Part shown: piece by piece, positions 8,446 to 20,122 of the stretch
Layout of the letters: each line of letters begins with the position of its first letter
Position numbering within the stretch: position 1 is the stretch's first letter
From: a virus
IMG/VR virus record: IMGVR_UViG_3300028559_000227
Coordinates: 1 to 20,360 of that record
Direction: 5' to 3' (one strand)
DNA length: 20,360 bases
Notes under the pieces: generated by a model
Told to the model about the DNA's origin: nothing
Seen by the model: only the letters and a program-made list of their open reading frames with translations
Database searches by the model: none
Made by a program: the position numbers and the translations under genes

Positions 8446-8802
8446 GGGGCAATACAGGTATTGATTGGGTATAGTCGTAATTGACAGGCATGTAGTGCTA
8501 AATTGGAAGCACTTTAATAACTCTATTGAACAATTGAATTGACAACGATTTTATCGTTTCCGAAAATTTCCTTGACGTGGCTGCTTGCAGTTTCGCAGGA
8601 GAGCTTGCTGTAGCCTAATACACGCTAATAGTGGTATCCCACTTCATTATGGTATGTCCCATAACATAATGGTAGTCCATTTGATTTTGGTCGAAAATCA
8701 TTAAAAATCGAAATATTTTGAAGAGTTAGAAAACTCTATTCTAAACATGTAGAATGTTTTTGAAGAGTGCTCAAGACAAGGGTTCGATTCCCTTTTGCTC
8801 CA
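8446..8802 (+). ncRNA. ssrA: tmRNA (ribosome rescue RNA)
   Basis: The 357-base span has both halves of the tRNA-like domain. The 5' end GGGGCAA (8446-8452) pairs with TTGCTCC (8795-8801), followed by the discriminator A. The T arm AAGGG / TTCGATT / CCCTT precedes the 3' half. The middle contains a candidate tag frame from GCA at 8595 to TAA at 8616, encoding AGELAVA. This resembles the Bacteroidetes tag start AGE and the usual small hydrophobic Ala-rich end, but is shorter than the normal AGETNYALAA-type tag. CCA is not encoded; the next bases are CA. tmRNA with SmpB rescues stalled ribosomes and tags the nascent chain for ClpXP. A GIY-YIG gene follows directly. Confidence 0.88.
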
Positions 8803-8805
8803 CAT

Positions 8806-11444: not shown

Positions 11445-11514
11445 ACGAGTGTAGCTTAAATTTAAAGCACCAGCGGTAAGCTGGGGACTAATGGTTCAAA
11501 TCCATTCTCTTGTA
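11445..11514 (+). tRNA. Non-canonical tRNA, five-base anticodon loop (Thr GGT-like)
   Basis: The acceptor ACGAGTG/CTCTTGT has one T-T mismatch, the D arm GCTT/AAGC has a 7-base loop without GG, and the T arm AATGG / TTCAAAT / CCATT is perfect. The anticodon stem CCAGC/GCTGG (11470-11484) is perfect but encloses only GGTAA. A normal tRNA-Thr loop would be TTGGTAA, so bases 32-33 appear missing. Reading a four-pair stem instead gives CGGTAAG with anticodon GTA and no T33. Isotype is therefore uncertain. Discriminator A; no CCA. Confidence 0.6.
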
Positions 11515-14166: not shown

Positions 14167-15330
14167 ATGAAAAACGAGATTAAACAAATATTAAGAGAGG
14201 GATTGATTCGTGAAGAACGTATCAAGTTCGCTATGAATATACCTGACGATATTAAAGCCATAGCAAATATCTTTAAGGAAAATAATTACGAGATTATGGT
14301 TGTTGGTGGGGCCGTTAGAGATTCTTTGTTAGGCAAGGCACCTAAGGATTTTGACTTGGCTACTGATGCAGTTCCAGATAAGGTTGAAGAAATGATGAAA
14401 GCGGCTGGTCTTAGAACCATAGCCACTGGTAAAGCATTTGGTGTTATTAACGTATTTACCGACCAAGGTGAATACGAGATTGCTACCTACAGGTTAGATT
14501 CTAAGGAAGGTGACGGAAGGAGACCAGATTCAGTATCATTTACCAACATCGAGGGTGATGTATCTCGCAGAGACTTGACAATCAACGCTTTATTTTATGA
14601 TATAGACAAGGGTGAAGTTGTTGACCTTGTTGGTGGAATTGAAGACCTAAGGAATGGTGTTATAAGAACCGTGGGTGCTGCTGAAGATAGATTTGGAGAG
14701 GATAGGCTTAGAATTTTACGTAGCATTAGATTTGCTGGTAGATTTGGTAGTCAATTAGAACCATCAATTGATGCAGCACTCCAAAAAGATGCTAGTCTTG
14801 AGGGTATTTCTGGTGAACGTATTCGTGATGAATTCATCAAGGGTATTAGTTCAGCCAAGTCACAAAAGGCTTTTCTTCAAATGATTGATAAGTATGGATT
14901 ATTTGATTGGGTATTTAGGGGGTTAAATGTCGATAGAAGCGCTTTTAGTGACGATAGCGACTACATCGTTCTATTGGCAAGACTACTTAAGGGTAATAGC
15001 ATAGATGCGCTTAGAAAGACTCTAAATAACCTAAAGTACACTTCAGAAGAAGTAAAAGCCATTTCCTTTTTGGTTGCTATGCTTAGCTTAGGTATTGATA
15101 ATGCGGTTGTATTAAAAAGAGCTGAACAACATGCTGGTGTAACGCCAGAGCAAATCAAAGCCTTTACAAGTAAGGAAGGCATCGATACTAAGTTGGTAGA
15201 TGCGTTTAATAGGTTTAGACTTACCGTAAGTGGGCCAGAGGTAATGGACATGATGAATCTAAAGCCAGGTCCTGAGGTTGGTAAAGCAATTCAAAAGATT
15301 GAAACGGATAACTTTAAAAAACTTTTATAG
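14167..15330 (+). CDS. cca: CCA-adding enzyme (tRNA nucleotidyltransferase), class II
   Basis: A 387-residue class II nucleotidyltransferase. Motif A has GGAVRD at 47-52 and the catalytic aspartates in 'DFDLATD' (61-67); 'RRPDSV' (118-123) and 'RRDLTINAL' (134-142) are the next blocks; 'EDRLRILRSIRFAGRF' is the conserved Arg-rich segment before the helical body. The enzyme adds CCA to tRNA 3' ends, or poly(A) in some relatives. Almost all tRNAs and the tmRNA in this window lack an encoded CCA, which fits the first role. An extra N-terminal segment 'MKNEIKQILREGL' resembles that of other proteins nearby and may be a capsid-sorting signal (LRE at 9-11). Confidence 0.93.
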   Translation: MKNEIKQILREGLIREERIKFAMNIPDDIKAIANIFKENNYEIMVVGGAVRDSLLGKAPKDFDLATDAVPDKVEEMMKAAGLRTIATGKAFGVINVFTDQGEYEIATYRLDSKEGDGRRPDSVSFTNIEGDVSRRDLTINALFYDIDKGEVVDLVGGIEDLRNGVIRTVGAAEDRFGEDRLRILRSIRFAGRFGSQLEPSIDAALQKDASLEGISGERIRDEFIKGISSAKSQKAFLQMIDKYGLFDWVFRGLNVDRSAFSDDSDYIVLLARLLKGNSIDALRKTLNNLKYTSEEVKAISFLVAMLSLGIDNAVVLKRAEQHAGVTPEQIKAFTSKEGIDTKLVDAFNRFRLTVSGPEVMDMMNLKPGPEVGKAIQKIETDNFKKLL

Positions 15331-16607: not shown

Positions 16608-16699
16608 ATTACGTTGGCTGGGAGGCTTAAAGCAGTCTATCGTGGAGATAGGTGACCCATCTTGATGTGGGTCCATGGGTTCGAATCCCATACGTAATA
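16608..16699 (+). tRNA. Non-canonical class II tRNA, five-base anticodon loop (Ser GGA-like)
   Basis: The acceptor ATTACGT/ACGTAAT is perfect and the T arm ATGGG / TTCGAAT / CCCAT is perfect. A long variable arm pairs GACCCA with TGGGTC. The anticodon stem CTATC/GATAG (16637-16651) is perfect but closes only GTGGA. Read as G32-T33-GGA this would be tRNA-Ser lacking bases 37-38; discriminator A, however, is not the usual Ser base. With a four-pair stem the loop would be CGTGGAG without T33. Isotype uncertain. Confidence 0.6.
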
Positions 16700-16703
16700 C
16701 TAT

Positions 16704-18259: not shown

Positions 18260-18336
18260 GGGCTTATATCGGCTCTCGCTCATAACGAGTTGAAACCGTA
18301 ATCGGTCACATGGGGGTTCGAATCCCTCTAGGCCCA
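18260..18336 (+). tRNA. D-arm-less tRNA (CAT) with long variable arm
   Basis: The acceptor GGGCTTA/TAGGCCC has seven pairs and discriminator A, and the T arm GGGGG / TTCGAAT / CCCTC is perfect. The anticodon arm TCTCG / CTCATAA / CGAGT has four pairs and anticodon CAT. Only a 7-base linker (18267-18273) stands where the D arm should be. The variable region is 21 bases with hairpin ACCG / TAAT / CGGT. The tRNA-Arg at 18968 has the same segment lengths. No CCA. Confidence 0.65.
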
Positions 18337-18348
18337 CTAATAAAATAA

Positions 18349-18445
18349 TCGGATGTAGCTCAGAGGCAGAGCGTTCGCCTGTTGTCAGTTTTAAATAAAC
18401 TGATTCTTAAGCGAAATGTCGGGATTTCGAAATTCCCCATCCGAG
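18349..18445 (+). tRNA. tRNA-Asn (GTT) with 25-base hairpin insert in the anticodon loop
   Basis: The acceptor TCGGATG/CATCCGA is perfect with discriminator G, as in Asn. The D arm GCTC / AGAGGCA / GAGC and anticodon stem TTCGC/GCGAA are perfect. The loop is CTGTT, then 25 bases (18384-18408), then AA. Removing the insert restores CTGTTAA with anticodon GTT. The insert folds as TCAGTTT / AAACTGA around five bases. Its boundaries are ambiguous by two bases because both ends carry TT. The T stem is also slightly irregular. An intact tRNA-Asn follows 6 bases later. Confidence 0.7.
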
Positions 18446-18451
18446 CAAAAT

Positions 18452-18525
18452 TTACCCATAACTCAGCGGTTTAGAGTGTCGTCCTGTTAAGTCGAAAGTC
18501 ACTGGTTCGAATCCAGTTGGGTAAG
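18452..18525 (+). tRNA. tRNA-Asn (GTT)
   Basis: The acceptor TTACCCA/TGGGTAA is perfect with discriminator G, the D arm is ACTC / AGCGGTTTA / GAGT, and the anticodon arm TCGTC / CTGTTAA / GTCGA has one T-T mismatch and anticodon GTT. The T arm ACTGG / TTCGAAT / CCAGT is perfect. CCA not encoded (CA follows). An ordinary counterpart of the interrupted gene before it. Confidence 0.9.
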
Positions 18526-18967: not shown

Positions 18968-19044
18968 GCAAGCGTATCCCCCTAGTCTTCGAAACTAGAG
19001 TGCGGTAATGGAGGTAGATATGGGTTCGAATCCCATGGCTTGTT
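18968..19044 (+). tRNA. D-arm-less tRNA-Arg (TCG)
   Basis: The acceptor GCAAGCG/GGCTTGT has six pairs with a G-G mismatch at its base. The anticodon arm CTAGT / CTTCGAA / ACTAG is perfect with anticodon TCG, and the T arm ATGGG / TTCGAAT / CCCAT is perfect. A 7-base linker (18975-18981) replaces the D arm, and the variable region is 21 bases, exactly as in the CAT tRNA at 18260. The linker TATC could pair with GATA near the T arm. CCA absent (CA follows). Confidence 0.65.
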
Positions 19045-19543: not shown

Positions 19544-20122
19544 ATGGAGGAATTCAAAAAATTAAATTCATTTAAGAACCGTATATCTTATTGTGAGTCT
19601 AAACTTAAAAGGATATCATCTGGTTCATCTAGAATAGTTTATGCGATAGATGGAACCAAGGTATTAAAATTAGCCAAAAATGCAAAAGGGTTGGCCCAAA
19701 ATGAAGTTGAGGCTACTTACGCAAATTATAGTGATTTAAACTCTATTCTTGCTAGGGTTTTTGATTATAATGATGATAATTTGTGGATTGAGATGGAATT
19801 GGCACGTAAGGTTTCTAAAAATAATTTCAAACAAATAATTGGTTATACATACGAAGACTATGTGGCAGCACTTAATTATCACTACTATACCGATATAAAA
19901 CCATCAAGAACCTTTAGACCCAACAAACCCGATGCTTATGATGATATGTGGGAAAATGAATTTATTTATGATATGTTTAATTATATAGGTAGTTACAAAA
20001 TACCAGTTGGTGATTTGGGTAGGTTAAGTAGTTATGGTTTGGTTAAACGAGAAGGCTCGGAGTCAATAGTGTTAATAGATTATGGTTTGACCAATGAAGT
20101 TTATACTGGTTATTATTCATAA
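19544..20122 (+). CDS. Protein kinase-like fold protein
   Basis: A 192-residue protein with kinase-like landmarks. A Gly/Ser loop 'RISSGSSRIVYAIDG' (about 23-37) precedes Lys42 in 'KVLKLAKNA', where kinases bind ATP. A hinge-like 'LWIEMELARKVS' follows, and a late 'ESIVLIDYGLTNEVYTG' resembles the DFG segment, with Asp-Tyr-Gly. A clear HRD catalytic loop is not seen, and the protein is smaller than typical kinases (250 or more), so it may be a pseudokinase. The in-frame region before ATG 19544 looks coding and may belong to the protein through a frameshift. Targets are unknown; it might enter the cell with the phage DNA. Confidence 0.65.
   Translation: MEEFKKLNSFKNRISYCESKLKRISSGSSRIVYAIDGTKVLKLAKNAKGLAQNEVEATYANYSDLNSILARVFDYNDDNLWIEMELARKVSKNNFKQIIGYTYEDYVAALNYHYYTDIKPSRTFRPNKPDAYDDMWENEFIYDMFNYIGSYKIPVGDLGRLSSYGLVKREGSESIVLIDYGLTNEVYTGYYS

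Follow-up and report, generated by a model that had tools for sequence, protein, structure and literature searches.

A group I intron is built around a catalytic core (P3-P8/P4-P6) that spans at least about 200 nt; the 5' exon ends in U, and the intron itself ends in a required G. According to a review, the tRNA introns of bacteria are group I introns, and the tRNA introns spliced by proteins are confined to archaea and eukaryotes (PMC4090602). A third system concerns the mending of tRNAs rather than their splicing: a set of Rnl1 and Rnl2 ligases, a kinase with cyclic-phosphate activity, a nucleotidyltransferase and a CCA enzyme has been described near the tRNA genes of jumbo phages, and repair sets of this T4 type mend tRNAs broken by anticodon nucleases, which is a role in defence (PMC7824862). 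Here we describe a phage tRNA-Asn gene with a 25-nt insert in its anticodon loop. The best explanation, to which we give just short of an even chance, is that the insert is a mini-intron in a jumbo-phage tRNA-Asn, from which it would be excised by cutting and resealing.

The Interrupted tRNA-Asn Gene

The window (the whole stretch of DNA analysed) is a viral fragment of 20,360 nt; it carries genes for a CCA-adding enzyme, DnaJ and ClpP, together with a tmRNA match and an array of tRNA genes. The CCA-adding enzyme (14167..15330, + strand; PolyA_pol, Pfam PF01743, 4e-39; 70% identical in L001) served as the marker for finding relatives: CCA-adding-enzyme-like proteins, followed by an alignment search, led to about 25 related virus contigs, the longest of 362 kb, whose tRNA arrays are similar, and the window belongs to this jumbo-phage clade. 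The tmRNA match lies at 8446-8805 (70.6 bits), and the related contig L002 also has a tmRNA. Since the phage has a tmRNA, its host is presumably a bacterium.

The gene for tRNA-Asn(GUU) at 18349..18445 (+ strand) is interrupted in its anticodon loop. It is recognised by ARAGORN when introns are allowed and scores 46 bits with the Rfam tRNA model (RF00005, cut-off 29 bits) despite the insert. Its acceptor stem (TCGGATG/CATCCGA, 7/7 pairs), D-stem (GCTC/GAGC, 4/4) and anticodon stem (5/5, TTCGC at 18374..18378 pairing in full with GCGAA at 18411..18415, both + strand) are perfect. The T-stem has four of five pairs, with a T53.T61 mismatch that is common to a whole class of viral tRNAs; because this odd T-arm body belongs to a widespread viral class with many anticodons, the mismatch is not decay. 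The gene ends in the discriminator base G73 (18445, + strand), the base used by asparaginyl-tRNA synthetases, and the CCA is not encoded. The anticodon loop has 32 nt instead of the usual 7 and reads CTGTT-GTCAGTTTTAAATAAACTGATTCTT-AA. When positions 18384-18408 are taken out, it becomes CTGTTAA, the standard tRNA-Asn(GUU) loop, and ARAGORN calls this spliced form tRNA-Asn(gtt), whereas the unspliced form is not called unless introns are allowed. The spliced junction would be expected to read TTCGCCTGTTAAGCGAA.

The insert (18384..18408, + strand) is delimited by the sequence itself and by blast matches to the intact tRNA-Asn genes of cultured phages, which break off at 18383, right where the insert starts to intervene. 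Its boundary slides over TT and can be placed between 34/35, 35/36 or 36/37. Positions 18384-18391 pair with 18397-18404 to give the 7-bp hairpin TCAGTTT/AAACTGA with a 5-nt loop (18385..18403, + strand) plus the pair G18384.U18404. The insert alone folds at -6.8 kcal/mol (z -5.0), and the anticodon arm together with the insert at -13.3 kcal/mol, against -3.9 +/- 1.7 kcal/mol for shuffles (z -5.4), a stability far from chance. The sequence-only reading had described a tRNA-Asn with a 25-base hairpin insert in its anticodon loop, the recovery of CTGTTAA on dropping 18384-18408 and a 7-bp hairpin with ambiguous TT boundaries; the stems, the loop, the 46-bit score and the ARAGORN call all agree with it, and the hairpin gains one G.U pair. 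That reading had also placed an intact tRNA-Asn next door. This second tRNA-Asn(GUU) (18452..18525, + strand; ARAGORN; RF00005 63.2 bits) is indeed uninterrupted, but its anticodon stem contains a U.U mismatch. The interrupted copy has no such mismatch and is, by this measure, the better preserved of the two.

The insert could be a small palindrome that came to be tolerated in a tRNA copy that is redundant and is losing its function on the way to becoming a pseudogene. A second tRNA-Asn is, after all, present, and the insert is found in one phage only: the same tRNA-Asn subtype occurs without it in L001 (16141-16213), L153, L160 and L161, no second copy of the hairpin exists in the window even when three mismatches are allowed, no exact copy turned up in a pattern scan of viral contigs, and no homologue of the insert was found in the data searched. 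Against this, the gene shows no other decay, its three perfect stems comparing favourably with the mismatched stem of the uninterrupted neighbour. The sequence-only reading had named, as evidence against itself, relatives in which the insert varies while the rest of the tRNA decays; the insert does vary among the relatives, but the window gene is not decaying.

Comparison with Known Introns

The inserts described here and below resemble the group I introns of bacterial and phage tRNAs in their location in the anticodon loop and in their bacterial or phage setting. However, at 25-53 nt, they are far below the group I core and far too small for known self-splicing introns. The Rfam model of group I introns (Intron_gpI, RF00028) has no match at 18349-18445, with E up to 0.5, and none at the other inserts scanned. 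Moreover, the window insert ends in U, and none of its possible boundaries would end it in G.

The likeness to the bulge-helix-bulge (BHB) introns of archaea and eukaryotes is that of a short insert in the anticodon arm, the removal of which restores the tRNA exactly, and it extends to healing and sealing enzymes of the kinase, cyclic phosphodiesterase and ligase type, found here in relatives. In contrast, the bulge-helix-bulge is not found at the junctions: the window insert scores 6/10, compared with an average of 6.6 for shuffled inserts and 10/10 for a synthetic BHB, and the other inserts score at or below shuffled ones. Neither is there a gene for the splicing endonuclease (tRNA_int_endo, PF01974) in 13 related virus records, and the host is presumably bacterial. 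The inserts fit neither the group I nor the BHB definition. Provisionally, they are filed as a variant of the tRNA intron, which would become a class of its own if splicing were proven; no published report of such phage tRNA introns was found in the open-licence literature, preprints aside.

Inserts in Related Phages

Asn(GUU) is the commonest tRNA call in the relatives (43/291), usually with two or three genes per array. A first pattern based on the tRNA body gave at least 120 matches with many anticodons, none of them with an insert. A scan for members of the window's tRNA body class with a long anticodon region then gave a single match, a tRNA-Asn in L146 (1267-1370) in which a hairpin of 31 nt is inserted at 32/33 or 33/34, and a scan with another T-arm gave a tRNA-Asn with a 30-nt insert at L336 1367 (L369 3781-3883). 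These two inserts are homologous, having the same hairpin with one compensatory pair change, and they occupy the anticodon loops of different tRNA bodies. In the L336 phage, the interrupted gene lies between an Ile tRNA and Arg tRNAs and adjoins an intact tRNA-Asn, as in the window. A covariance model of the pair (R1) has no match in the window, the insert of which is not homologous to them despite being in the same arm of the same type of tRNA; a weak R1 match in L121 was not recognisable as a tRNA and was rejected. The search in related phages suggested by the sequence-only reading has revealed other inserts in tRNA-Asn (L146 and L336) but not the same one.

These findings bear on the possibility of an assembly or sequencing artefact. 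The window is a single metagenomic record; nevertheless, the placement of the insert is exact, its fold is strong, and similar inserts occur independently in other records, at the same place and in the same type of tRNA. We consider an artefact very improbable.

The tRNA body shared by the window gene at 18349-18445 (TAGCTCAGAGGCAGAGC ... GTCGRGATTTCRAAATTCYC, with T53.T61) occurs with many anticodons across L018-L138 (e.g., L021, L024 and L112), a distribution that suggests an expansion of this class by duplication and anticodon change.

A second insert family (family 2) comprises 41-53-nt inserts in the Pro, Asp, Glu-like and Tyr tRNA genes of nine virus records, with a core made up of AAAAA, a 6-bp hairpin and GTTCAGCA. 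It was first seen among unusually long tRNA matches of the relatives, where a tRNA-Asp (G001) and a Glu-like tRNA (G003) have nearly the same insert, of 48 and 41 nt, respectively, at 29/30. When 35 records were searched with a pattern, the same element also turned up in the tRNA-Pro of G017 and G063; the G017 phage is also the carrier of the L336 Asn insert. A covariance model (R2) built from these four and run over 50 virus records gave 10 matches at E<0.001, nine of which are in tRNA genes in the sense orientation: Pro at 35/36 in G017, G063, G064 (a near-copy of G063) and G011; Asp at 29/30 in G001, G002 and G034; Glu-like, also at 29/30, in G003; and Tyr, in the D-arm region, in G033. Five of the nine lie outside the training set, G064 being nearly identical to G063. 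The tenth match, a weak one (26.9 bits) in coding-like sequence without the CAGCA motif, was rejected. R2 has no match in the window, the insert of which is thus a separate family.

The family-2 hairpin pairs in every sequence, and two of its pairs are changed on both sides, which 9/500 shuffles also achieve (in this test, the loops were removed and one T was added to one row for register). The bases after GTTCAG often pair, as judged by eye, with the last bases of the exon (AATG with CATT in G001). Among insert-bearing genes of all kinds, removal of the insert restores an ARAGORN tRNA in 14/14 tested, the family-2 genes tried (Tyr left out) included, and one of the 14 has an unclear anticodon call; the expected spliced junction in the G001 Asp gene is AACAATGGCCTGTCACGCC. 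Some family-2 carriers have imperfect anticodon arms: two of the Pro genes have A33, and positions 27 and 43 are mismatched in two of the Asp genes.

Both the Asn pair and family 2 persist, with conserved structure, across phages with about 50-70% protein identity. They would not survive neutral decay, which further argues against an insertion that is simply tolerated in a redundant copy, and we regard that explanation as distinctly unlikely for the window gene. A slightly better, though still unlikely, alternative is that the interrupted gene gives rise to a stable RNA of tRNA shape that escapes splicing altogether and takes no part in decoding, serving as a decoy, a sponge or the carrier of a hairpin. 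This would fit with the family-2 core being about as conserved as the surrounding anticodon arms and with the existence, in other viruses, of conserved tRNA-shaped genes with middle parts replaced or enlarged. It would also fit with the presence of an intact copy of the same isoacceptor wherever this was checked in insert-bearing phages, which leaves room for a loss of function. On the other hand, an RNA that is not decoded has no need of the complementary stem halves, the complete GUU loop and the G73 that the window gene has kept. As for a decoy for an Asn-targeting nuclease, the role put forward in the sequence-only reading, it has become weaker because the insert destroys the 7-nt loop attacked by anticodon nucleases and because similar inserts affect not only Asn but also Pro, Asp, Glu-like and Tyr tRNAs.

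RNA-Repair Enzymes beside the tRNA Arrays

Close to the tRNA array, on its downstream side, 14 of 16 related records encode a P-loop protein (MRGIPGSGKSTKAK) that bears two motifs of the H-x-T type and in which a P-loop 5'-kinase is fused to a 2H 2',3'-cyclic phosphodiesterase (KinCPD). Pfam searches with 11 members found AAA_33 in all 11 and the CPD domain of the fungal tRNA ligase (tRNA_lig_CPD) in seven. An AlphaFold model (mean pLDDT 85) has the fungal RNA kinase 6u05 as its top Foldseek match and also resembles CNPase and the polynucleotide kinases of bacteria and T4; having two domains, the protein gives low whole-chain TM-scores. Searches for KinCPD gave only partial, distant matches in cultured phages and three partial matches in bacterial genomes. 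The KinCPD reading frame of the L146 phage (L241 10230-11072) is longer by six in-frame nt, which place a TAA within the P-loop.

KinCPD is followed by a T4 Rnl1-type ligase in 12/13 records, and an Rnl2-type ligase is found in 11/13; in the L146 phage, a nucleotidyltransferase and a Nudix protein lie between them. A ligase and an end-healing enzyme are present in both of the phages with related Asn inserts (L146 and L336), and KinCPD is present in all nine family-2 records. Among 37 records tested, family 2 occurs in 7/17 with KinCPD and in 0/20 without it (Fisher p 0.002, the phages being kin and not independent). The same repair genes also occur in relatives in which no insert was found. 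RtcB and Tpt1 were looked for in the related records and are absent.

The window itself stops before the expected place of these genes. Its conserved ORF at 19544..20122 (+ strand) has orthologues (tblastn) in L001, L153, L160 and L245, which in the relatives lie between the tRNA array and the KinCPD gene; the last 238 nt after this ORF contain a different, partial ORF, and the record ends about where the repair set would start.

The sets found here are like the T4 Rnl1/Pnkp-type sets of jumbo phages in having ligases, a kinase, a nucleotidyltransferase and a CCA enzyme near tRNAs, but those were described for nuclease-broken tRNAs, and no intron-bearing tRNA genes figure in the accessible part of that description (PMC7824862). 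With fungal Trl1, KinCPD shares both a kinase and a CPD domain, in the same order, while the ligase here is a separate Rnl1-type protein, and there is no Tpt1 to remove the 2'-phosphate.

Another possibility is that the insert protects, either by breaking an anticodon-loop DNA site of homing endonucleases or integrases or by shielding a reserve of tRNA from anticodon nucleases until it is spliced. Homing-endonuclease-like genes (GIY-YIG/NUMOD3 and endonuclease VII matches) do lie among the window tRNAs, and archaeal introns have been proposed to block integration into tRNA genes (PMC4090602). However, no cleavage site was identified, and protection would explain why the insert is retained but not how the tRNA functions, for which either splicing or a loss of function is still needed. 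We find it improbable as the main explanation.

Other Unusual tRNA Genes

Several further oddities were observed in the window, in its relatives and in other viruses. In the window, the tRNA genes at 11445-11514 and 16608-16700 have G for the nearly universal T33, their best 7-nt anticodon loops being CGGTAAG and CGTGGAG, respectively. Seventeen tRNA genes lack a normal D-arm (window 18260-18336 and 18968-19043; L002, L003, L148, L149, L157, L158, L166, L174, L241, L370 and L371). They consist of an acceptor, a 7-8-nt linker (TAnCC..) and a canonical anticodon arm, with several anticodons, followed on the 3' side of that arm by a stretch of 20-25 nt containing GTA...GG...TTGAAAA. The linker tends to be complementary to the bases immediately ahead of GTA, which gives the impression of a D-stem whose halves lie on either side of the anticodon arm (17/2000 shuffles pair as well as this).

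Inserts in other viruses include a branched one of 49-51 nt at 35/36 of a Lys-type tRNA (L029 11962, L175, L177 and L176 1337), in two versions with several compensatory changes, and structured anticodon-loop inserts of 37-44 nt in Thr (L180 4219; L225, L240), CAU (L215 7278; L234) and Gly (L328 4082) tRNAs, the removal of which restores the tRNA. Among the records of these Lys, Thr, CAU and Gly carriers, several of which are short fragments, Rnl1 was found only in the L176 phage; these inserts may be of a different nature and are left out of the system proposed here. A number of other apparent inserts turned out to be adjacent tRNAs.

Two tRNA-Met-like genes (L187 9010 and L223 4246) have an anticodon loop that apparently holds another tRNA gene. 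In some tRNA-Asn genes, about 30 additional nt separate the D-arm from an intact anticodon arm (L178, L203, L208 and L235), and some conserved tRNA-shaped genes of other viruses lack a recognisable anticodon arm although their 5' end and T-arm are normal (L195, L212, L229; L199, L232; L207, L230; L197, L216). Across 24 loci of the clade there are 10 calls of amber-suppressor-like CTA tRNAs (e.g., L001 7289-7362, L153, L155 and L158), hinting at TAG recoding.

A Possible Splicing Pathway and Its Significance

How might the window insert be removed? The interrupted tRNA-Asn would be transcribed as a precursor, in which an endonuclease of the phage or the host would sever the anticodon loop before and after the hairpin; the resulting tRNA halves would be healed by KinCPD and sealed by the T4 Rnl1-type ligase. 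The window's own phage, to judge from its relatives, probably encodes KinCPD and Rnl1 past the end of the record. The insert, the intact exons, the exact restoration of the loop and the similar inserts and enzymes in relatives are observed. The new type of tRNA intron considered in the sequence-only reading has thus gained recurring insert families, covariation and adjacent repair genes, while excision itself we infer.

Our confidence in the mini-intron stays near one half for three reasons: the interrupted genes are second copies wherever this was checked, some of the family-2 carriers have the imperfect anticodon arms mentioned above, and the repair genes have a known purpose in mending the damage done by anticodon nucleases (PMC7824862). 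Also speaking against it are the absence of tRNA_int_endo, RtcB and Tpt1 from the related records examined, the TAA in the KinCPD frame of the L146 phage, the occurrence of the repair genes in relatives in which no insert turned up, and the lack of a homologue of the window insert in the data searched. A broader proposal, which we hold somewhat more tentatively, is that jumbo phages of bacteria have a protein-dependent tRNA splicing of their own, with several families of 25-53-nt introns, unrelated to the group I and BHB types, that a nuclease would excise from the phage tRNAs before KinCPD and Rnl1 seal the halves.

Even if the inserts are not spliced, tRNA genes of these phages that are hidden from default finders carry conserved RNA elements. 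The junction sequences are concrete enough to be sought in existing small-RNA data. If the proposal is true, these would be the bacterial world's first tRNA introns that do not splice themselves, and in one family the intron would pair with the 5' exon and would have spread across several tRNAs, at several positions. If the inserts are spliced, enzymatic tRNA splicing would extend to bacterial viruses, which would suggest a link between tRNA repair, as a counter-defence, and tRNA splicing.
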